A stretch of 64,000 nt of DNA. It comes from Kiloniellaceae bacterium (GTDB taxonomy: Bacteria; Pseudomonadota; Alphaproteobacteria; Kiloniellales; J153). Shown piece after piece: positions 44,562 to 54,516 of this stretch. Numbering within the stretch: the first letter of the stretch is position 1; each line of letters begins with the position of its first letter. Under the pieces are notes generated by a model. It did not search any database, had not been told where the DNA came from, and saw only the letters and a list, made by a program, of their open reading frames with translations. Both the position numbers and the translations under genes were made by a program. The DNA lies in NCBI GenBank assembly GCA_021776115.1, contig JAJFGN010000024.1, positions 62,001-126,000 on the forward strand. Reading direction: 5' to 3'.

Positions 44562-45197
44562 TTAGTCCGGGGCGGCGGCGCGCTGGGCTCGGCTTCGCGA
44601 GTCCGCATCCGCTACGAAGCGGGCGAATATCTCGCTCAGCGCGGAATCCAGGGCTTGCACGGACGCTTCCACGCTATCGTCCTTGGCAGCGATTTCGGCG
44701 CCGTAGCTCTGCACGACGACCAGGCGTTGGCCGCGATTTTCCGTCATGGCGAGTTCAAGTTCCGCGACCACGCGGGTCGTATCGCCTTGCAGCAGTCGTT
44801 CCAGGCGCCGGATGCGTCCTGTCACCTCATAATCCGCGGGGAGCCGCAGGTCCGGCGTGATAACGGAGTTCGCCGCACCGCTGGCCCTTAGGTAGTCCAC
44901 AAGCTGCGTTTGCAGCATCCGTGGCGGGGCCTCGATCCAGTAGTGGTAATCGTGCTGTTGTACTTCGTGCGCGCCGCTTTTGCTGAACAACAGAGGCCGT
45001 TCGCGCAGCAAGCCCTCTGCCTCGATTGGCGCGACCGAGATCGTGCCCGGAAATTGGGCTGTGGCGTCGAGAGGGGGCCGGACCATGACCCGATAAAAGT
45101 GGTCCCTCGGCAGGGGCGGTGTCGCGCCAAGACAACCGCTCAGCGTGGCGAGCAACAGGGCCGCTATGACCGGCTTCATCGCATCTGGGAAGGTCAT
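44562..45197 (-). CDS. ABC-type transport auxiliary lipoprotein (PqiC-like)
   Basis: 211 residues with a lipobox (LATLSGC, Cys near residue 22). The mature region has the ABC_trans_aux pattern: FYRVMVRPPL, VAPIEAEGLLRERPLLFS, YHYWIEAPPRMLQTQLVDYLRAS and RIRRLERL. Related lipoproteins (PqiC) sit at the outer membrane and complete MCE-type lipid transport bridges. Its ATG overlaps the mlaD stop (ATGA). Last gene of the leftward operon starting at 49868. Confidence 0.9.
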   Translation of the reverse strand: MTFPDAMKPVIAALLLATLSGCLGATPPLPRDHFYRVMVRPPLDATAQFPGTISVAPIEAEGLLRERPLLFSKSGAHEVQQHDYHYWIEAPPRMLQTQLVDYLRASGAANSVITPDLRLPADYEVTGRIRRLERLLQGDTTRVVAELELAMTENRGQRLVVVQSYGAEIAAKDDSVEASVQALDSALSEIFARFVADADSRSRAQRAAAPD

Positions 45198-46150
45198 TGG
45201 GTGTCCTCGGGTTGGCTTGCCTTGGCCTCAGATACCGCTTCGCGCGGCGTGCCGCCAAGCAGGACACCGGGATTGTTGCGGACAAGCCGGCTGAATTCAT
45301 TCATGTTGCGCGCGGTTCCATCGAAATTGTAAACGATCGTGTCGACGCTGCGTGCCACGGCGGCCAGGGTATACCGCAAGTCCTTCAGGGTTAGTTCGAC
45401 GCCGTTATCGTTGGCGTCGACCAGGGTGTCTAGGTTTGCCGCCAAGCTCCGCAGCTTATCCATGGCCTGGGCGAGATCCTGGCTTGCGCCGGCCAGGGTT
45501 TGGGTCGTGCCTTCCGTGTTAACGATCGCTCGCCGGATTGCCTGAACGTTTTCATCGGCCAAGATCGCCTGGACCGGCACCAGGCTTTCGTTTAGGCGCT
45601 GAACGAAGGTCGCCAACTCTCCTGTGATCCGGGGCGTGTCGCGATTGACCGTGGTGGCCAGGGACAGCAGCGTACCGAGCAGGGGTTTCACGCTGCCCTC
45701 GCTTAACGCCGCTAGTTGGCTCGCGGCGCCCTGCATGGCGGTGAACATATCCGATGGGGCGGCGCTGGAGATGTCACCGCCAACGGCGACGGCTTCTTCG
45801 GCGTGACCGCTCTCGATATCTAGCGTCTTCGCGGCCAGAAAGCTGGAGCTGCCGATCCGGGTCACGCTATCCGCGGGGATGATCCACCCCTGCTCGACGC
45901 TGATTGCGATCCGAAACCGGTTCGATTCACGCTGCTCGGCTGGTTCGATGCGCTCGACCTGACCGACCGGAAAACCTTCGAACCGAACTTGGGTCCCATA
46001 CTTGATGTCGGCCACGTTGTCGAGCATCACGAAGTACTGGTCCGTCGGCCCGGTCCGCCCGGTCAATACGGCCACCGACCCGATTGCCGCCACTATCATT
46101 GCCATGACAAAGCAGCCGACTAAAACGTAATTGATTTTGTTGCTGTACAT
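45194..46150 (-). CDS. mlaD: MCE-domain periplasmic lipid transport protein
   Basis: 318 residues: N-terminal membrane helix (YVLVGCFVMAMIVAAIGSVAVL), the MCE domain with YGTQVRFEGFPVGQVERIEP near residue 55, and an extended helical tail rich in Leu/Asn (ESLVPVQAILADENVQAIRR). Longer than E. coli MlaD (183), closer to PqiB/YebT- or Mce-type subunits with an alpha-helical needle. Hexamers form a hydrophobic channel for phospholipids in the periplasm. Operon between mlaF (26 bases) and the lipoprotein gene (overlap). Confidence 0.92.
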   Translation of the reverse strand: MYSNKINYVLVGCFVMAMIVAAIGSVAVLTGRTGPTDQYFVMLDNVADIKYGTQVRFEGFPVGQVERIEPAEQRESNRFRIAISVEQGWIIPADSVTRIGSSSFLAAKTLDIESGHAEEAVAVGGDISSAAPSDMFTAMQGAASQLAALSEGSVKPLLGTLLSLATTVNRDTPRITGELATFVQRLNESLVPVQAILADENVQAIRRAIVNTEGTTQTLAGASQDLAQAMDKLRSLAANLDTLVDANDNGVELTLKDLRYTLAAVARSVDTIVYNFDGTARNMNEFSRLVRNNPGVLLGGTPREAVSEAKASQPEDTQ

Positions 46151-46176
46151 CGCTGCGTCCTGTCCGCGAATCTGTT

Positions 46177-47043
46177 CTATGCCTCGCCGGCCAAGCGGCG
46201 CAGGTATTCTTCCGGGTCGAGCGGTGTGTCGTCGGGCCGGCGGTTAAGTAGGCTTTGAACCCGTTGGTTTTCGCTGCCTCGCACCTCGTCCGGCGTGCCG
46301 ACCTCCAAGATGCGTCCGTGATCCAGGATCGTGATGCGGTCGGCAATCTTGAAGGCGCTGTGTATCTCGTGCGTTACGACGACGATGGTCATATCCATGG
46401 CGTCGCGCAGGCGCAGTATCAGGTCGTCCAAGGCAGCGGAAACGACTGGATCGAGGCCGGCTGAGGGTTCGTCGAAGAACAGCAGCTTAGGGTCGGTGGC
46501 GATGGCGCGCGCGACCGCGGCGCGTTTCAACATGCCGCCGGAAAGCTCCGAAGGCATGAGATCGCCGAAACCGGACAGGTTGACGACCTCCAGCTTCATG
46601 CGCGCCATGATGTCCATGGTCTTTTCGTCAAGCCGCGTGTGCTCGCGCAGCGGCAGCTTGATGTTCTCGATAACCGACATGGAGCTGAACAAGGCGCCGC
46701 CCTGGAAAGCGACCCCGACACGGCGGCGTTGATCGAGCATTTCGACCGGGCCGAGCTGGGTAATATCCTGGCCAAGCAGGTTGATGACGCCGCTGCTGGG
46801 CCGCTCCAAGCCAATGAGGTGGCGCAAGAAGGTGCTCTTCCCGGACCCGCTGCCTCCCATGATGACCATGATCTCGCCAGGCTGTATCGATAGATTTAGG
46901 TCGAACAGAACCTGCGTATGCCCATAGTGCGCAGTGAGGCCCCAGACCTCGACCGCGCCCTCGACCGCGCCCTCGGCCGTTCCTTTGGGTAGCGGCGCGG
47001 GCCGTGCCGCGGTTGCGCTGGATTGTAAGGTTCCCATAGTCAT
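46177..47043 (-). CDS. mlaF: Mla-type lipid ABC transporter ATPase
   Basis: 288 residues. Walker A GGSGSGKSTFLRHL, Q-loop VAFQGGALFSSMSV, signature LSGGMLKRAAVARAIATDP and Walker B LLFFDEPSAGLDP; the latter two are in the MlaF/MkI form. A 25-residue Ala-rich N-terminal tail is unusual. Cytoplasmic ATPase of the Mla complex. Starts three bases after the mlaE stop. Confidence 0.95.
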   Translation of the reverse strand: MTMGTLQSSATAARPAPLPKGTAEGAVEGAVEVWGLTAHYGHTQVLFDLNLSIQPGEIMVIMGGSGSGKSTFLRHLIGLERPSSGVINLLGQDITQLGPVEMLDQRRRVGVAFQGGALFSSMSVIENIKLPLREHTRLDEKTMDIMARMKLEVVNLSGFGDLMPSELSGGMLKRAAVARAIATDPKLLFFDEPSAGLDPVVSAALDDLILRLRDAMDMTIVVVTHEIHSAFKIADRITILDHGRILEVGTPDEVRGSENQRVQSLLNRRPDDTPLDPEEYLRRLAGEA

Positions 47044-47046
47044 GAC

Positions 47047-47838
47047 TCAGCGCGTCGCCAAGAAGCCGAAAATCATGTCGGTCACGATGATCGCCGAGAT
47101 CGCGTGAACGACGGCGCGCGTCGTGACCCGGCCAACGCCGTCCGAGCCGCCGGTCACCAGCGAGCCGTTTACCGATGCGATGATCGCAATCAGAACCGCG
47201 AACAGCGCGCTCTTACCCAAGCCGTGCAGAAGATCGGCCGGGGTCAAGATATCGACCGTATTTGCGACGAAGGACGCGAAGGAAGTCTCGAGGGAGGCCG
47301 AGACAAAAAGGCCCGCGGCGCCTAATCCAACCAGATTGGCCCACATGGCAAGCGCCGGTAACATGACCAGCATGGCCAGGGCAGCTGGCGCGACAAGGAA
47401 GCGAACCGGATTAATGCCGATGGTGCGCAACGCATCGACTTCCTGATTGATCGTCATGGAACTGAGCCGCGCGGCCAAGGCGGACCCGGAGCGGCCCGCC
47501 ATGAGAACGCCGATGATAAGCGGCGAGAATTCCCGCGTGAGCGCCAGCGCGATGCCGACATGGGCGAAGGACTCGGCGCCGAACAAGCCCAGCGAATAAA
47601 GGCTCTGGACGGCAAGCATGAACCCAATCGCGGCCGCCAACAGCGTGGCGATGGGCAAGGCCTCAATGCCGACTTGCATCATTTGGGCCACGACGCTGCC
47701 GATTCGGACCGGCTGGCGCCAGCGCCGGCCGAACAGAGTCCAGAACAGGCTCTCACCCAAGAGGCTCGCCGCGTAGCCAACTTCGTCAAGTGCGCGTACG
47801 CTGCGCCGGCCGGTTTGTTCGATGAAGTTGAGCATCAT
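47047..47838 (-). CDS. mlaE: Mla-type lipid ABC transporter permease
   Basis: 263-264 residues from ATG 47838 (47835 is an adjacent Met); a longer open frame upstream only overlaps the STAS gene. Five or so membrane helices, with the MlaE signature IGVLMAGRSGSALAARLSSMTINQEVDALRTIG in the middle, and GGSDGVGRVTTRAVVHAI near the end. Inner-membrane permease of a phospholipid transporter. The STAS gene ends eight bases upstream, as if occupying the place of mlaB. Confidence 0.95.
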   Translation of the reverse strand: MMLNFIEQTGRRSVRALDEVGYAASLLGESLFWTLFGRRWRQPVRIGSVVAQMMQVGIEALPIATLLAAAIGFMLAVQSLYSLGLFGAESFAHVGIALALTREFSPLIIGVLMAGRSGSALAARLSSMTINQEVDALRTIGINPVRFLVAPAALAMLVMLPALAMWANLVGLGAAGLFVSASLETSFASFVANTVDILTPADLLHGLGKSALFAVLIAIIASVNGSLVTGGSDGVGRVTTRAVVHAISAIIVTDMIFGFLATR

Positions 47839-47846
47839 CGGGCCTG

Positions 47847-48179
47847 TCAGGAGTTTGCCTGGACGGCGCTGGTCAAATCGGTGTGGATGGCGAATACGGA
47901 GTCGAGGCGCGCGAGTTTCAGAACCCGCAAGGCCTGCGGGTTTACCGCGATCAAAGCCAGATCCGCATTCTTCTTGCGAGATTCCTGCAGGGCTTCGATC
48001 AGGCACGCGATTCCCGAACTATCGATATACTCGACCCCTGCCATGTCAACGAGAACCAGTCGCCCCTGCTCGACGGCGCCAAGCAGTACCTTACGAACTT
48101 GCGGTGCGTGCTCTAGATCGATTTCACCGGCTAAGTGGACAATTCGGCGATTGGTAATCTGGCCCGTAGCTTCGGTCAT
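47847..48179 (-). CDS. STAS-domain protein (anti-sigma antagonist / MlaB-like)
   Basis: 110 residues, a single STAS domain. VDMAGVEYIDSSGIACLIEAL holds the phosphorylation motif; by analogy with SpoIIAA/RsbV, S54 in D53-S-S-G is the site used by an RsbW-type kinase. In E. coli MlaB, also a STAS protein, binds MlaF as part of the transporter. Here the gene sits between the kinase gene (its start overlaps the kinase stop) and mlaE, so it could serve as MlaB, as an anti-sigma antagonist, or both. Confidence 0.93.
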   Translation of the reverse strand: MTEATGQITNRRIVHLAGEIDLEHAPQVRKVLLGAVEQGRLVLVDMAGVEYIDSSGIACLIEALQESRKKNADLALIAVNPQALRVLKLARLDSVFAIHTDLTSAVQANS

Positions 48180-48634
48180 ATGGACCCGTCCTTTTGCTTA
48201 TACATGCGCAGCAGATTGCCACCCCCAGGGGCGGGCAGATATTCGATCCGATCCATGATCGCACTCATGAAGTAGCTGCCGAGCTTGCCAGGCTTAATGT
48301 CGTGCAAGGCACGGTGCTGGATCTTGCTGGGGTCGAGGGTTGGTGCCTGATCGCGCAACTCAACGAGGAGTCCCTCGCCGTGGCGTATGAGCGTCAGCGC
48401 AATCTCGCAACCGTCCTGGCCCTTATAGCCGTGAACGATGATGTTCTGGCAGGCCTCATCGACCGCGAGTACAACGTCGCTGGCGATCGTCGGCGCCAAA
48501 CCGCACATCCGCGCCGAGGCGTCGACGCCCGGACGTATCAGCTTTATCCGGTCGACTCTTGCCGGAAACCTTATCTCCAACAGTGTGTCGATAGGTTCGG
48601 ACCGAGCCGTCACGTTAATCGCGCTATCAATCAT
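48176..48634 (-). CDS. RsbW-like serine kinase / anti-sigma factor (HATPase_c_2)
   Basis: About 152 residues from ATG 48634, which overlaps the phosphatase stop; ATGs further upstream lie inside that gene. Single-domain GHKL ATPase: N-box VVLAVDEACQNIIVHGY, G1 box LRDQAPTLDP and G2 box GKLGSYFMSAIMD, in the form seen in partner-switching kinases (no His phosphoacceptor). Such proteins bind and phosphorylate a STAS partner and may hold a sigma factor. No sigma-factor gene is adjacent. Confidence 0.92.
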   Translation of the reverse strand: MIDSAINVTARSEPIDTLLEIRFPARVDRIKLIRPGVDASARMCGLAPTIASDVVLAVDEACQNIIVHGYKGQDGCEIALTLIRHGEGLLVELRDQAPTLDPSKIQHRALHDIKPGKLGSYFMSAIMDRIEYLPAPGGGNLLRMYKQKDGSI

Positions 48635-49868
48635 GGTTCTTAACCCAGGCATCGTCGATCGCAAGCACGGTCAGGTCGTCGCGCAGGCTCCATCCTTCCT
48701 GATTTAGCTCACCAAGGAGAGCGTCGATGCGCTCGGCCATGGGCAGAGGCGAGAGAGATTCAATCATTTGGATAAGGCCGTCGACGCCGAGTTGCTCGCC
48801 CTGGCCGTACCGAAACTCGGTCAGGCCGTCGCTGAAGATGTAGAACTCTCCGCCCCCCATCTCGACCCTGCGGGTCGACAGCGAGATCTCGGGCAAGATA
48901 CCCAGCGGCGGCGCGTCGGCGGGAAAGGATTCGTATCTGTGATCGGGGGCGCGCAGGAGCGGCGGTTCATGCCCTGCATTGGCAAATTCCAGGCAGCCGG
49001 CCACGGGGTCGTATGTGCCCGCGACCATTGTGACGAACATGCCACGGCTAGCGGTCTCATGAATTTCGTGGTTTAGGCGTTGCAGGATTTCGGCTGGGTG
49101 AAAGATGGTTTTGCCCAGGCAACGATAAAGGCTTGCCGCTTTGGCCATGAGGAGGGCCGCGTTCATGCCCTTTCCCGAGACGTCTCCCAGGGCAAACGCA
49201 ATCCGCCCGTCCGGCAGCGTGAAGAAATCGAAGAAATCGCCGGATACCTGGCGTATAGGCCGATTGAATCCAAAGACCGGATACGTGCCTGACGCGACAT
49301 TCGGCAAGAGGTGGCGCTGAATCTCGGCCGCGAATTCCAAATCGCGGGTTGTGTCTTTCTGATCGTCAACCGTTTCCTTGAGCTGGGCGTTCGTAATCGC
49401 GAGCGCGGTCGCATTCGCCATGGCCTGCAGCAGCGCCTGATCCCGCGCGTCGAACAGGGCGGCGCCCGCGTTTCGGGTCAGCCGTGCGACAGCATAAGGT
49501 TCGCCGAGCGGTAAGATGGGAGCACAGACGGAGGGACCCGTCGTACCATCTTCTGCATCGCATACGATGGTACGCTGTTCGATGCAGTGCGCGAGCATGG
49601 GGTCGTCAACTTGTATTTTACGCTGGCGCGGTACCGATCGGCCGCGCGATGTCTTGAATACGAAGCCGCTCGGGCTCTCGCGCCACAGAAATATTTCCGC
49701 GATCTCAGCCCCAAGATTCCTGACCATCCCCTCCAGGGCCGTGTTCAGGGTGGCAGGCAGGTCGCGTTCGACTGTGAATTCTTGGCAATAACTGGCCAAG
49801 ATTTCGGCATCGCACGGCGCTTCCCGGCTTAGCTGGGTAATAGGGAAAAGGGCGTTCGTGGCGTGCAT
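48627..49868 (-). CDS. GAF-SpoIIE (PP2C) serine phosphatase
   Basis: 413 residues. N-terminal GAF-like sensor (about residues 25-165, with APILPLGEPYAVARLTR), a coiled-coil link (LKETVDDQKDTTRDLEFAAEIQRHLLP), then the PPM/SpoIIE phosphatase with metal aspartates in VSGDFFDFF, LGDVSGKGMNAAL, FSDGLTE and RDDLTVL. All catalytic residues look intact. Role inferred from RsbU/RsbP: dephosphorylates the STAS protein. First gene of the leftward operon. The signal read by the GAF domain is unknown; there are no membrane segments. Confidence 0.93.
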   Translation of the reverse strand: MHATNALFPITQLSREAPCDAEILASYCQEFTVERDLPATLNTALEGMVRNLGAEIAEIFLWRESPSGFVFKTSRGRSVPRQRKIQVDDPMLAHCIEQRTIVCDAEDGTTGPSVCAPILPLGEPYAVARLTRNAGAALFDARDQALLQAMANATALAITNAQLKETVDDQKDTTRDLEFAAEIQRHLLPNVASGTYPVFGFNRPIRQVSGDFFDFFTLPDGRIAFALGDVSGKGMNAALLMAKAASLYRCLGKTIFHPAEILQRLNHEIHETASRGMFVTMVAGTYDPVAGCLEFANAGHEPPLLRAPDHRYESFPADAPPLGILPEISLSTRRVEMGGGEFYIFSDGLTEFRYGQGEQLGVDGLIQMIESLSPLPMAERIDALLGELNQEGWSLRDDLTVLAIDDAWVKNHD

Positions 49869-50228: not shown

Positions 50229-51317
50229 GTGTCCAGATCGAGTAGGATTCCGGTCTTAGTTTTCGACGGCGATCCTTGGGTGATCGAGGATTTCCGGATC
50301 GTCTTGGATCCGCCACACCCTACTGGCGAAAACCCCGGCTCTATGGGAATTGCGTTCGAGGCCGGGTTGCTCGGGTCGCGCCCGGCGCGCGATCGCTTTC
50401 CGGACGTTGAACTCACCTTCGAGAGGAATGGTCACGCAACGATTGAGGCGGTGCGCCAGGCGGTCGAGCGCGGACAGTCGTTTCGTGTCGCATTCATAGA
50501 TATTGGCGTGCCGCCTGGAAATTGGGGCCTCGATATCGCGGCGACGCTTCGCGCTTTGGACCCAAAACTGCACATTGTGCTCACCATTGCTGAACCTGGC
50601 CCGAGGCCGGTCGATATTTGTGAGCGGATCCCGCCCGCGGACCGCCTAAGCCTGTTGCACAAGCCAGCTCGCGCGCATGAGATCGAGCAACTCGTTTTGG
50701 CGGCGGCGACCCGGTATGCCCGTGAGCGGGCCGATGAACTGACCCGCGCGCAGGCGCGCGATATCGCGGCCAAGGCACTGACCGAACTGCCTCTTGGTTT
50801 GATCGTCGCGGAGCAGGATCGGAGGATCGTGGTCGCCACCGGGGCTGTGTCCATCATTTTCCCCGAGTACCGGGGCGGATTAGTGCCGGGCGCATATCTG
50901 CCGGAACGCCTTTCATGGATAACCGGGTCGCGCAGTGTAGGTCCGGGTGCCTGGGAAACACAATCCTCTGGCGTTGTCCGTGAGTTGAGGCTGGATGACG
51001 GGCGATGCGTTGTTGCCGCCTCCGCGCCGTCAAGCGACGGCGGCGGCATAAGCCTGTTCCTGGATGTTACGGATCAAAAACGTCAGGAAATACAGCAAGG
51101 CCGGCACGCGCAAGCGGTCCAGTTGGCGAAGAAGTTGACCGCGTTCCGCAATGGCGTGAATGCGCTCTTGCGCGAAAACGCGCGGCCTCGTGGGCGTGCC
51201 GCGCCAAGTTCGCGCGCGAAGTTTGGTACCGGTGACCGGAGCCTCGCGAAACATCTGCAAGAACTGATCAGAACACTCGATGCGGCCATTGTCGCCCCAG
51301 TGGAGTCTGACGGATGA
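50229..51317 (+). CDS. Divergent REC domain protein with PAS-like second half
   Basis: 362 residues, GTG start. First 155 residues are a receiver-like domain of the expanded kind often fused to signalling outputs: acidic D13/D15, phosphoacceptor D91 (AFIDIGVPPGNWGLDIAATL), K145 (LLHKPAR), with an insert between the first strand and helix. After a helical linker (ARERADELTRAQARDIAAKALTEL) comes a PAS-like fold (LPLGLIVAEQDRRIVVATG ... ISLFLDVTDQKRQE) and a helical tail. No kinase core or DNA-binding domain. Followed 61 bases later by the BTAD/AAA regulator gene on the same strand. Confidence 0.78.
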   Translation: MSRSSRIPVLVFDGDPWVIEDFRIVLDPPHPTGENPGSMGIAFEAGLLGSRPARDRFPDVELTFERNGHATIEAVRQAVERGQSFRVAFIDIGVPPGNWGLDIAATLRALDPKLHIVLTIAEPGPRPVDICERIPPADRLSLLHKPARAHEIEQLVLAAATRYARERADELTRAQARDIAAKALTELPLGLIVAEQDRRIVVATGAVSIIFPEYRGGLVPGAYLPERLSWITGSRSVGPGAWETQSSGVVRELRLDDGRCVVAASAPSSDGGGISLFLDVTDQKRQEIQQGRHAQAVQLAKKLTAFRNGVNALLRENARPRGRAAPSSRAKFGTGDRSLAKHLQELIRTLDAAIVAPVESDG

Positions 51318-51378
51318 CAATCTCGACTGAGGGACCATCTTTCGGATCGGCCGGGGGGCGCTGCGCGGCGGGTGGCCC

Positions 51379-54300
51379 ATGGTGAAATTAAGACTCCTTG
51401 GCGGTTTTGACCTCGAGGATGCGGGACAGGGCTCGGTCTCTATTGCGACCCTCAAGGGCCGGGCGCTTCTTGCATACCTGGCTTGCGCGAAGGGAAGAGC
51501 CGCGTCGCGCGACAGTTTGGCATTGCTCCTGTGGAGCGATAGCGACAGCCGAAAGTCGCGCCAGAACCTGCGTCAAGTCCTGCTAAAGCTGTCACGCACC
51601 TTGGCTAGGCACGATCTTCCGATCCTTCGAGTCGACGCCCAAACCGTTACCTTGCGTAACGAAGACATCTGGGTCGATGTTTGGGAGTTGGAGTCGTTGG
51701 GTAATGCAGAGTCATTCCCGGCATTAGGGCGGGTTGAATCACTCTACCATGGCGAGTTTCTCGATGGGCTAGCCCTGGACGCCCCTGTCTTCGGGGATTG
51801 GTTGGCCGACATGCGGGCGCACTTCCAGAACCGCGCCTTGAACTGTCTGTATGCCTTGCTGGAACATCAACGTGACGCCGGCGATCTCCGCGCCGCGATA
51901 ACCACCGGAGCGCGCACCCTAGAGATCGATTCCTCCCAGGAGCAGGTGCATCGAGCCTTAATGGAATTGTATCTTGCGAGCGGCATGCGGGGCGCGGCCT
52001 TGAACCAATACCGGATATGCCGACGCGTCTTGCATCGCGACCTTGATGTGGTTCCCGACGAAGCGACGGAGGCCCTTCGCCGAAGAATCCGGGAGCACAC
52101 CGCGGGTCTGCGCCCGGGCCAGCATGGAGACCTTGGGGCGGCGCCGTCTCAGCAGGGCGACGATTCACCGGATAACCAATGGGAAATGCCCGAACCGCCA
52201 ATTGGACGGGCCGCGGAATCGAAAGCCCTGCACGATGCCTATACCGAGGCGTGCAGCCGCGGCGCCCGGCTATTTGCCCTGTGCGGCGAAGCCGGCATTG
52301 GTAAGACCCACCTTCTTGACGCCTTTACGACACTCCTGGACGGGGAGAGGATTCCGGTCTGCAGAGTCGCGGCACGGCAGGCTGATACTCGACGTTCCTT
52401 AGGGTTGTGGCGTCAGGTCTTAGACTCTCTATCGCCGTCACACGATTCGGCACTCCCGCAAGAGCCCGACGGGCTACGAGAAGTCTCGGCGCCCTATGGT
52501 GTGCAGCACGGTCGCGCCGGTAATTTGCGGCTCTGGACTCATGAATCTGGTCGCGGGTCGTTCGATGACATGCTTGAGCGCTTGCGAAATCACGTGACGC
52601 AAGGCCCGCTCGTTCTGATCCTTGAGGATGTGCAGTGGGCAGACGCCGACAGCCTGCACCTCTTGGGTTGGGCGCTTCATCGGCTGCAGCAGGCTCCCGT
52701 GCTTTTCGTGGTGGCAGCGCGTTTACCGCCGGTAACGGAACTGACTCACTTTGCGCCGGTTTTACGCGACCTCGAAAGGGGGGGCTTAGTCAGGCATTGC
52801 GACCTTGGCCCCCTGTCCTTTGACGACTCGATGGCTTTGATCGACAAGGCTCTCGCGGTGCGCGGCCTTTCAAAACTTAAAAACGGGCACCTGAGACAGT
52901 TGTGGAATGTTGCCGAGGGGAACCCGGAGATACTTGTTGCAGGATTGTCGCCGCCTGCTCGGATAGACGCACATCCGCTGCCTCAAAACCTGCGTCATAA
53001 CGCCAGGCAGATCATGGACAGCATATCGCCTCCGGTAAAAACCCTGGTCAACATCGTAAGTTTGGGACGAGACCCGCTAGGGCTCGCTGTTTGCGCTCAT
53101 GCTGCGGGAATGGATGCGGCGAGCGCGGCTGCAGCGCTGGAGGAGTTGATCGTCGCAAAATTGCTTCGCACGGTCGATGATAGGTTTGTTATTGCGCGCC
53201 GATGGCTCAGTAAGGCGATCCATGACGACTTGCTGGCGCATCGGCGCCGGGCTTTGCACGCCGCCATTGCCACGGCGATTCGTGAGGTCGAGGCCTCCGA
53301 CTTGGTGCCACACTACGATGCCTTGGCGTATCATTGCCGGGCGGCGGGCGAGAGTGTCGTTGCTGCCGGGTACCGGCTATCCGCGCTTGAGTTGTCGCTC
53401 GCCCGCGGCGCACGGCGCGGGGTATCGAAGGCCTTGGATCGCTTGGTGCGAAGCTTGCGCGAACGGCCGCCCGATCCGAAGATCGATGCCGTCTGCTGGC
53501 GCGCCGGATTCCTGCGCGCCGCCATCGCGGAGGCCGAGGCCGACCCGGCATCGGCGCTAAGCCATCTCCGCGCACTTGAGAGGAGCGGCGCGCGCAACGA
53601 CGATCCGCACGCGGCCGTCGCCCTTTCCTACGCTTTATCCCGGGCATGTTGCGTCGCGGGCGACGGGGAGGAGGGGCTAAGGTACGCGCGCCGCGCCCTG
53701 TATCTCTCGGCCGGCCAAAGCGGCGCAGAAGGTCCATGGCAATTGGCTGAGCGGATTTTATTTCGGTGCCACCTCTATGCCCCGGCCGCACAAGATATCG
53801 TTTTAGGTCTTAAGGCCAGAGCCCGACGAGCTGGCCTACGAAGAGCCTGGTCCGCGGTAAGTGAAGTCGTGGCGGCTCAGGCAATGATGGAAGCCTTGAG
53901 TGGTCAGGTCACGGCCACGAAAGGTTCCTTCGACGCCGCGCGCGCAGCCGTTGCACGGCTACGCGAGCCAAGGTCGGAAGCGGGTCTGCTGCAAATCGAA
54001 GGCATGGTTCGAACTTGGGTTGGCGAGGCTCCACAAGCCCTTGAGGCGCTTAGTAAAGCGCTTGCCCTGGCGGATGCGGCGGGCGACTTGATCAGGACCT
54101 GTGTTACTCGCGGCCTGCGGGGCCACGCGCATTTCGCGCACGGCCTTTTGAAGGAAGCCAAGGTCGACCTGGAGCAAGCGATCGCGGAGGCCGCTGCCCT
54201 AGGGCCTGTGCCGTATTTGCCGCTCTACTATTGCTGGTTGGCCGAGGTCGGCAGCCGGAACGGTCAACACGATGACGCCTTGAAGCACGCGCGCCATGCT

Positions 54301-54516
54301 TGGCGCCTATCGCAAAGGCAAGGGCAAGCTTGGAACCGTGCACCGGTTCTACGTGCGTTGGCGCGTGGCTTCGCGCATGCGGGCCAGCCTAACATCGCAG
54401 CCTCGGAAAGGGCGGTGCGGGAGGCGATTGCGATCGAGCGTTCGGTGGGGTTTCGTGTCGGACTAGCCGATTCACATGTGGCCTATGCCGGGGCCGGTGC
54501 GCCGCAAGCGATATAG
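51379..54516 (+). CDS. BTAD/SARP-type transcriptional regulator with AAA ATPase and TPR-like tail
   Basis: 1045 residues. N-terminus: winged-helix DNA-binding domain (LRLLGGFDLE ... DSLALLLWSDSDSRKSRQNLRQVLLKLS), then a BTAD domain (YHGEFLDGLALDAPVFGDWLADMR, LYLASGMRGAALNQYRICRRVL) as in SARP activators. An AAA domain follows: Walker A GEAGIGKTHL, Walker B LVLILEDVQWADADSLH. The last 450 residues are Ala/Leu-rich helical repeats, probably TPR. This STAND-like layout suggests a signal-triggered activator. Likely cotranscribed with the REC-PAS gene; target unknown, the divergent Mla operon is one candidate. Confidence 0.9.
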   Translation: MVKLRLLGGFDLEDAGQGSVSIATLKGRALLAYLACAKGRAASRDSLALLLWSDSDSRKSRQNLRQVLLKLSRTLARHDLPILRVDAQTVTLRNEDIWVDVWELESLGNAESFPALGRVESLYHGEFLDGLALDAPVFGDWLADMRAHFQNRALNCLYALLEHQRDAGDLRAAITTGARTLEIDSSQEQVHRALMELYLASGMRGAALNQYRICRRVLHRDLDVVPDEATEALRRRIREHTAGLRPGQHGDLGAAPSQQGDDSPDNQWEMPEPPIGRAAESKALHDAYTEACSRGARLFALCGEAGIGKTHLLDAFTTLLDGERIPVCRVAARQADTRRSLGLWRQVLDSLSPSHDSALPQEPDGLREVSAPYGVQHGRAGNLRLWTHESGRGSFDDMLERLRNHVTQGPLVLILEDVQWADADSLHLLGWALHRLQQAPVLFVVAARLPPVTELTHFAPVLRDLERGGLVRHCDLGPLSFDDSMALIDKALAVRGLSKLKNGHLRQLWNVAEGNPEILVAGLSPPARIDAHPLPQNLRHNARQIMDSISPPVKTLVNIVSLGRDPLGLAVCAHAAGMDAASAAAALEELIVAKLLRTVDDRFVIARRWLSKAIHDDLLAHRRRALHAAIATAIREVEASDLVPHYDALAYHCRAAGESVVAAGYRLSALELSLARGARRGVSKALDRLVRSLRERPPDPKIDAVCWRAGFLRAAIAEAEADPASALSHLRALERSGARNDDPHAAVALSYALSRACCVAGDGEEGLRYARRALYLSAGQSGAEGPWQLAERILFRCHLYAPAAQDIVLGLKARARRAGLRRAWSAVSEVVAAQAMMEALSGQVTATKGSFDAARAAVARLREPRSEAGLLQIEGMVRTWVGEAPQALEALSKALALADAAGDLIRTCVTRGLRGHAHFAHGLLKEAKVDLEQAIAEAAALGPVPYLPLYYCWLAEVGSRNGQHDDALKHARHAWRLSQRQGQAWNRAPVLRALARGFAHAGQPNIAASERAVREAIAIERSVGFRVGLADSHVAYAGAGAPQAI

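Follow-up and report, generated by a model that had tools for sequence, protein, structure and literature searches.

Introduction

In E. coli the MlaFEDB transporter includes a STAS protein, MlaB, whose helical face centred on Thr52 binds the ABC ATPase MlaF and which also contacts the C-terminal extension of the neighbouring MlaF (Tyr261, Leu265 and Leu266) (PMC7367683, PMC5016091, PMC7790496). When MlaB is missing, MlaF is lost from the complex, MlaB being needed for both the stability and the association of MlaF, and the T52E substitution in MlaB weakens MlaF binding (PMC7367683, PMC5016091, PMC7790496). No kinase is known for MlaB and its phosphorylation is unproven (PMC7367683, PMC5016091, PMC7790496); Thong et al. 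2016 and Kolich et al. 2020 (eLife) suggested that phosphorylation of Thr52 might regulate MlaFEDB, with the kinase unknown, and posed this as an open question. Here we analyse a set of seven genes at positions 44562–49868, on the minus strand, of a 64,000-nucleotide stretch of DNA from a Kiloniellaceae bacterium (contig JAJFGN010000024.1; the whole stretch is hereafter called the window), in which a STAS gene stands between the genes for a kinase and a phosphatase on one side and those of an MCE-family transporter on the other.

Two further groups of systems bear on this locus. In the Mpc (Mla-Pqi chimeric) transporter of Brucella abortus the permease, MpcE, carries a STAS domain as an N-terminal fusion, and the MpcD protein is 331 aa long (PMC12436622). 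In partner-switching modules, the same helical face of the STAS protein SpoIIAA/RsbV, with the equivalent serine, meets a kinase (PMC10120452, and textbook knowledge).

A prediction made earlier from the letters of the window (the original prediction) held that a phospholipid transporter is switched here by serine phosphorylation of an MlaB-like subunit. In the form that we now give it, we consider it probable that the locus encodes an Mpc-type lipid transporter with a separate STAS regulatory subunit, switched through phosphorylation of Ser54 by a kinase and a phosphatase of its own. Unphosphorylated STAS would dock on MlaF, and the MlaFE core would then hydrolyse ATP and move its cargo, presumably lipid. 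The RsbW-type kinase would use the same helical face when it binds STAS, and would phosphorylate Ser54; phospho-STAS would leave MlaF, and transport would stop until the GAF-SpoIIE protein, on a signal that its GAF domain would receive, strips off the phosphate and restores it. STAS would switch between the kinase and MlaF because both partners are encoded beside it and the same face would meet either.

Results

The seven genes and their arrangement

The seven genes named in the original prediction were all found, running leftward, when coordinates and strand were checked against the list of open reading frames, and each name is backed by a Pfam match above the gathering cut-off. The first (48627–49868, minus strand, as are all the others) encodes a 413-aa GAF-SpoIIE serine phosphatase of the PP2C/PPM type (SpoIIE 143 bits, 1.3e-41; GAF_2 29 bits, 1.2e-6), presumably the sensor and the 'on' arm of the switch. 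It is followed by the genes for a 162-aa serine kinase of the RsbW/SpoIIAB type (48176–48664; Pfam HATPase_c_2 79 bits, 3.6e-22) and a 110-aa STAS protein (47847–48179; Pfam STAS 70 bits, 1.2e-19) that has a predicted phosphorylatable Ser54 in the motif YIDSSG. The transporter genes come next: a 263-aa MlaE-family permease (47047–47838; Pfam MlaE 203 bits, 6.4e-60), a 288-aa MlaF-family ABC ATPase (46177–47043; ABC_tran 106 bits; the MlaF model gives 4.2e-59, which lies under its equivalog cut-off), a long MlaD/MpcD-like protein of 318 aa with a single MCE domain and a long C-terminal part (45194–46150; Pfam MlaD 46 bits, 4.8e-12, residues 36–115) and, last, a 211-aa PqiC/MpcA-like outer-membrane lipoprotein (44562–45197; ABC_trans_aux PF03886 52 bits, 6.9e-14) with a lipobox-like LSGC near its N-terminus. 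We place the start of MlaE at 47838, because its homologues begin at the same place, and not at the mechanically assigned GTG at 48006, which would overrun the STAS gene.

Overlaps or gaps of 26 bases or less had been claimed, and the measured spacing agrees: the kinase and STAS genes overlap by 4 nt, as do those of MlaD and the lipoprotein, and with the revised MlaE start the intergenic gaps are 8 nt (STAS-MlaE), 3 nt (MlaE-MlaF) and 26 nt (MlaF-MlaD). Given this tight spacing, the seven genes are likely to form a single operon. It is bounded on both sides: upstream, the neighbour at 50229 diverges from it, and the next genes downstream, gspK- and gspD-like to judge from their translations, lie on the plus strand.

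Transporter type and the host genome

The name Mla operon, under which the locus had been described, is not borne out. An E. coli-type Mla operon contains mlaC, which by Pfam is absent among the seven genes, and the window operon has the same transporter genes as Mpc, for which reason the transporter is best called Mpc-type, with a separate STAS subunit. Alongside the MlaE-type permease and the MlaF-type ATPase it has an MlaD-like protein that contains one MCE domain and is about twice as long as that of E. coli, and the PqiC-like lipoprotein gene ends the operon, the next gene being on the other strand. It departs from Mpc in one respect: its STAS protein has its own gene and is not fused to the permease N-terminus. 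The claim that this gene occupies the mlaB position fails for E. coli, where mlaB comes last in mlaFEDCB and the gene here lies upstream of mlaE, but it holds in spirit, as the gene matches the place of the Mpc STAS domain directly before MlaE.

The host genome (4.3 Mb, 98.7% complete), for which the closest named loci are in Kiloniellaceae metagenome-assembled genomes (92% MlaE identity), encodes one strong SpoIIE protein and one strong HATPase_c_2 kinase of the RsbW type, both of them those of the window, together with two STAS_2 proteins and three MlaE permeases. The second STAS domain is found on contig C21, at the N-terminal end of a 392-aa MlaE whose gene is followed by those for MlaF, MlaD and a PqiC-like lipoprotein. 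The genome thus has two colinear Mpc-type systems: that on C21, in which STAS and permease are fused, and that of the window, in which the STAS protein is separate and a kinase and a phosphatase accompany it. By this colinearity, and by the Rosetta-stone argument from the STAS domain at the permease N-terminus of both the C21 paralogue and Brucella MpcE, the STAS protein of the window belongs to the transporter. Searches of the host genome found no STAS protein for the third MlaE (contig C1) and no further kinase/STAS/phosphatase set.

Ser54 and the two enzymes

The DSSG motif that had been pointed out occupies residues 53–56 of the STAS protein, with Ser54 aligned to SpoIIAA Ser58 and MlaB Thr52. 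RsbW/SpoIIAB-type kinases act on a serine at this STAS position. All 46 kinase-linked STAS proteins of such modules (46/46) have serine here, whereas in the kinase-less STAS-MlaE fusions, which are frequent among Alphaproteobacteria, the C21 paralogue of the host included, the residue is threonine in 18/20 (mostly as DTAG) and serine in 0/20. The split is perfect, although few evolutionary events may lie behind it. Mere presence of a serine or threonine at the site was rejected as proof, as it is common across STAS proteins and kinase-less MlaB-like proteins with serine exist; because presence says so little, the informative control is the comparison of serine with threonine against the STAS-MlaE fusions. 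A STAS survey based on PF13466 matched mostly unrelated STAS proteins.

As judged from their sequences, both enzymes are intact, and the original prediction was right that a partner-switching kinase and phosphatase are encoded beside the STAS gene. The metal-binding aspartates of the phosphatase (Asp211, 229, 347 and 397/398) are invariant in 42/42 relatives, and Glu70/Asn74 of the kinase N-box and Asp105 in 47/47. The set thus has the features of an Rsb/SpoIIA module, namely the N-box Glu/Asn of the kinase, a serine at the SpoIIAA Ser58 position and the metal-binding acids of the phosphatase.

Phosphatase and kinase form one polypeptide (SpoIIE-HATPase) in 28 of the 42 scored loci and are split in 14, and the fusion fits the phosphorylation state of STAS as the output. 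It bears on a different reading, which we regard as unlikely: that it is the free kinase which, by binding, inhibits MlaF (or MlaE), with unphosphorylated STAS merely drawing the kinase off and the transporter standing in the sigma factor's place. Such an arrangement would yield the same gene linkage, and in canonical Rsb/SpoIIA logic the kinase is indeed the downstream effector (PMC10120452). However, the fused architecture resembles that of SypE, which has its STAS protein downstream (PMC10120452), and in the paralogous Mpc systems the STAS domain is itself part of the transporter. On the strength of the kinase-phosphatase and STAS-permease fusions, we favour STAS over the kinase as the output.

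A third reading takes STAS for a constitutive structural subunit of the MlaB kind; there would be no dynamic signalling, and the kinase and phosphatase would do no more than adjust how much of it is present or assembled. This would agree with the need for MlaB in the stability and association of E. coli MlaF. We hold this reading to be very improbable in view of the GAF input domain of the window protein and of the invariant serine and intact phosphatase across 40-odd loci.

By its sequence, the STAS protein is closer to the RsbV/SpoIIAA family than to MlaB: against the MlaB model NF033618 it scores 24.4 bits, where the cut-off is 90. The AlphaFold2 (AF2) model of the homologue at locus L049 has a SpoIIAA-type fold with a fifth strand (E97–99) and a C-terminal helix (H102–112), and does not show the minimal STAS fold of MlaB, which is without both. 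The description of the subunit as MlaB-like in the original prediction is therefore not supported. Given the extra strand and helix in the model, the details of MlaF binding may differ from those of MlaB.

Conservation of the linkage

Among 84,980 species genomes, a search with MlaE as the query found 31 relatives, and in 30 of these genes for SpoIIE, HATPase and STAS lie directly upstream in the same orientation. In the remaining one (L051, genome G655), the kinase and STAS genes are on the same contig, some 8 kb off and on the other strand. That the neighbourhood might be unique to this genome had been set beforehand as the refuting test for the original prediction; the survey was run and found the arrangement again in dozens of genomes besides this one, so on this point the prediction withstood the test.

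We also searched 289 genomes of the class Alphaproteobacteria. The kinase query had matches in 15 of them, and STAS and MlaE accompany the kinase in 10 genomes besides that of the window; the majority of the class is without the trio. The MlaE query returned 10 orthologues of at least 230 bits, set apart from all other MlaE proteins, which score 195 bits or less. At E<=1e-16 the kinase is found in 11/289 genomes, and it is present in 10/10 of those with an MlaE orthologue (Fisher p 1e-17, uncorrected for phylogeny).

Gene order varies. In G213, which has the next-best MlaE and at first seemed to be without the kinase, a STAS-SpoIIE-HATPase cluster adjoins the MlaE-F-D-PqiC operon and is convergent to it, and in G478, from another class, the order is HATPase-STAS-MlaF-MlaE-MlaD, and a gene for SpoIIE lies farther downstream. 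Since the linkage survives in several gene orders, it points to function and not to accidental co-transcription.

The STAS protein of G213 (L192:466-1197), encoded beside GAF-SpoIIE and HATPase genes, is 243 aa long and has a long C-terminal tail. In G148 (L037), where HATPase-STAS-MlaE-MlaF-MlaD-PqiC stand without SpoIIE, genes for a CHASE2-type adenylate cyclase-like and a FecR-like protein, as read from their translations, lie upstream and are perhaps another input.

A proposed contact between STAS and MlaF

Binding of STAS to MlaF in the window system is suggested by analogy with E. coli MlaFB. The MlaF of the window, for which the nearest solved structures are MlaF chains, has a conserved C-terminal extension, LLNRRPDDTPLDPEEYLRRL; in the MlaF proteins of these modules the extension ends in ..LDPxEYLRRL, with a tyrosine and, four residues on, a leucine, as in E. 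coli. The AF2 model of L049 shows it as a helix.

A motif of the MlaF helical subdomain, PLREHT, was considered as a marker of STAS binding and dropped, because the mycobacterial Mce1 ATPase carries PLREHT too and its complex is not known to contain a STAS protein.

We ran AF2 on two natural read-through chains, in which the frames are continuous across stops: STAS-MlaE-MlaF of L049 and kinase-STAS of L056. STAS and the kinase were well predicted, parts of MlaE and the middle of MlaF poorly.

Sigma factors, other targets and points against a phospho-switch

The original prediction had noted that no sigma-factor gene is nearby, and this proved true for the whole contig, which carries 0 of the 11 sigma-factor genes of the genome. 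Among the seven of these 11 that were tested, none exceeds the SigBFG cut-off, and all seven are of the RpoD, RpoH or ECF types. A sigma factor is unlikely to be the target, given that none is encoded on the contig and that those tested belong to these types.

The wider idea that the trio controls some other target, be it a sigma factor, a second-messenger enzyme or something else, and is merely co-transcribed with the transporter as both answer envelope stress, seems to us rather improbable. The genome does have those 11 sigma-factor genes, and in G112 (L028) and G556 (L158) a trio of the same subfamily occurs with no adjoining orthologous MlaE. Co-transcription alone is, however, no explanation for a linkage that persists while the gene order varies and some arrangements are convergent or separate, and the sigma factors tested (7/11), none of which reaches the SigB/F/G cut-off, offer no obvious partner.

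Several observations weigh against the phospho-switch that we favour. The occurrence of the trio apart from an orthologous MlaE is the first, and in G112 it is a ccmA-like ABC ATPase gene that follows the trio; G148 and G655 have no neighbouring phosphatase gene. Serine also stands at the site in some MlaB-like proteins with no kinase gene adjoining (L088, L094, L109), and the STAS protein is RsbV-like, with a strand and a helix that MlaB lacks. In the AF2 predictions the overall confidence (pTM) was low for STAS-MlaE-MlaF of L049, just short of the middle of the scale, and only a little past the middle for kinase-STAS of L056, and the relative placement of the domains was not predicted. Finally, E. 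coli MlaB T52A keeps binding MlaF and loses ATPase activity, a poor fit with a simple on/off phospho-switch (PMC7367683, PMC5016091, PMC7790496). That this variant binds yet is inactive makes the direction of switching uncertain: by analogy with T52E, dephosphorylated STAS may be the 'on' state and phosphorylated STAS the released one.

Neighbouring genes and a second kinase-STAS pair

Divergent from the operon, at 50229–54516 of the window, lie the genes for a 362-aa protein with no Pfam match and a receiver-like start and for a 1045-aa BTAD-AAA regulator. It is only at the Kiloniellaceae loci L044–L047 that relatives of these two proteins are encoded next to the operon, the BTAD gene in three of them.

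Outside the class, in family f168 of the same phylum, genes for a HATPase_c_2 kinase and a STAS protein (DSAG/DSSG) directly precede that of a UbiD-like decarboxylase of about 487 aa (L099, L101, L105, L108). The genes overlap briefly in most cases, and about 40 genomes from this family have relatives of the kinase. This is another partner-switching pair with no adjoining sigma factor, and a link to quinone or aromatic metabolism is possible.

Discussion

The idea of a transport subunit switched by serine phosphorylation survives this analysis in altered form. The kinase-STAS-phosphatase set is intact, is the sole one in its genome and is linked to the transporter across lineages and gene orders, and no plausible sigma target was found; on the other hand, the transporter is Mpc and not Mla, the STAS protein is not MlaB-like, and its binding to MlaF is proposed by analogy.

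We lean, by a little, towards the view that this is a widespread and dedicated serine-phosphorylation switch acting directly on an MCE-family intermembrane lipid transporter through STAS, in which a serine-bearing STAS protein in trans, controlled by kinase and phosphatase, replaces the threonine-bearing STAS domain present in cis in Mpc. None of the parts is new; their combination and its wide conservation appear to be undescribed, and a literature search, with subscription journals outside its scope, returned no paper that brings together MlaB, STAS and partner switching, nor one that combines MlaE or an MCE protein with STAS and SpoIIE. If the view is right, this would be, to our knowledge, the first lipid transport system of its kind to be gated by a signal, and a physiological answer to the hypothesis that MlaB is regulated by phosphorylation. 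As the same operon supplies the kinase and the phosphatase, fused to each other in most relatives, it offers a natural system for testing phospho-switching of lipid transport. Were phosphorylation of Ser54 to gate the ATPase, intermembrane lipid traffic would be under fast, post-translational control by a signal, and the contacts between STAS and ABC proteins would be a point of regulation in ABC transporters for whose study the natural enzymes are at hand.

Compared with known systems, the locus shares with E. coli MlaFEDB (PMC7367683, PMC5016091, PMC7790496) an MlaE, an MlaF with a C-terminal extension, an MlaD and a STAS protein with serine or threonine at the same site, and differs from it in gene order, in having no MlaC and in the RsbV/SpoIIAA type of its STAS protein. 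With the Rsb/SpoIIA modules it has in common an HATPase_c_2 kinase, a STAS antagonist with a phosphorylatable serine and a SpoIIE-type phosphatase with a sensor domain; unlike them, it is linked to an ABC-type lipid transporter, and a cognate sigma factor was not found among the 7/11 genes tested. SypE/SypA of Vibrio fischeri (PMC10120452) likewise has kinase and phosphatase in one protein, as in most relatives here, a STAS protein downstream and no sigma-factor output; SypE, however, has a receiver domain and another order of domains, and the output of SypA is biofilm formation, with its target unknown and no transporter operon. For the transporter itself, the counterpart is MpcEFDA of Brucella abortus (PMC12436622), with its MlaE-type permease, MlaF-type ATPase, long single-MCE MlaD-like protein, PqiC-like lipoprotein in last place and no MlaC in the operon; there STAS and permease are fused and no kinase or phosphatase has been described, whereas in the window STAS is a separate protein that comes with a kinase and a phosphatase of its own.

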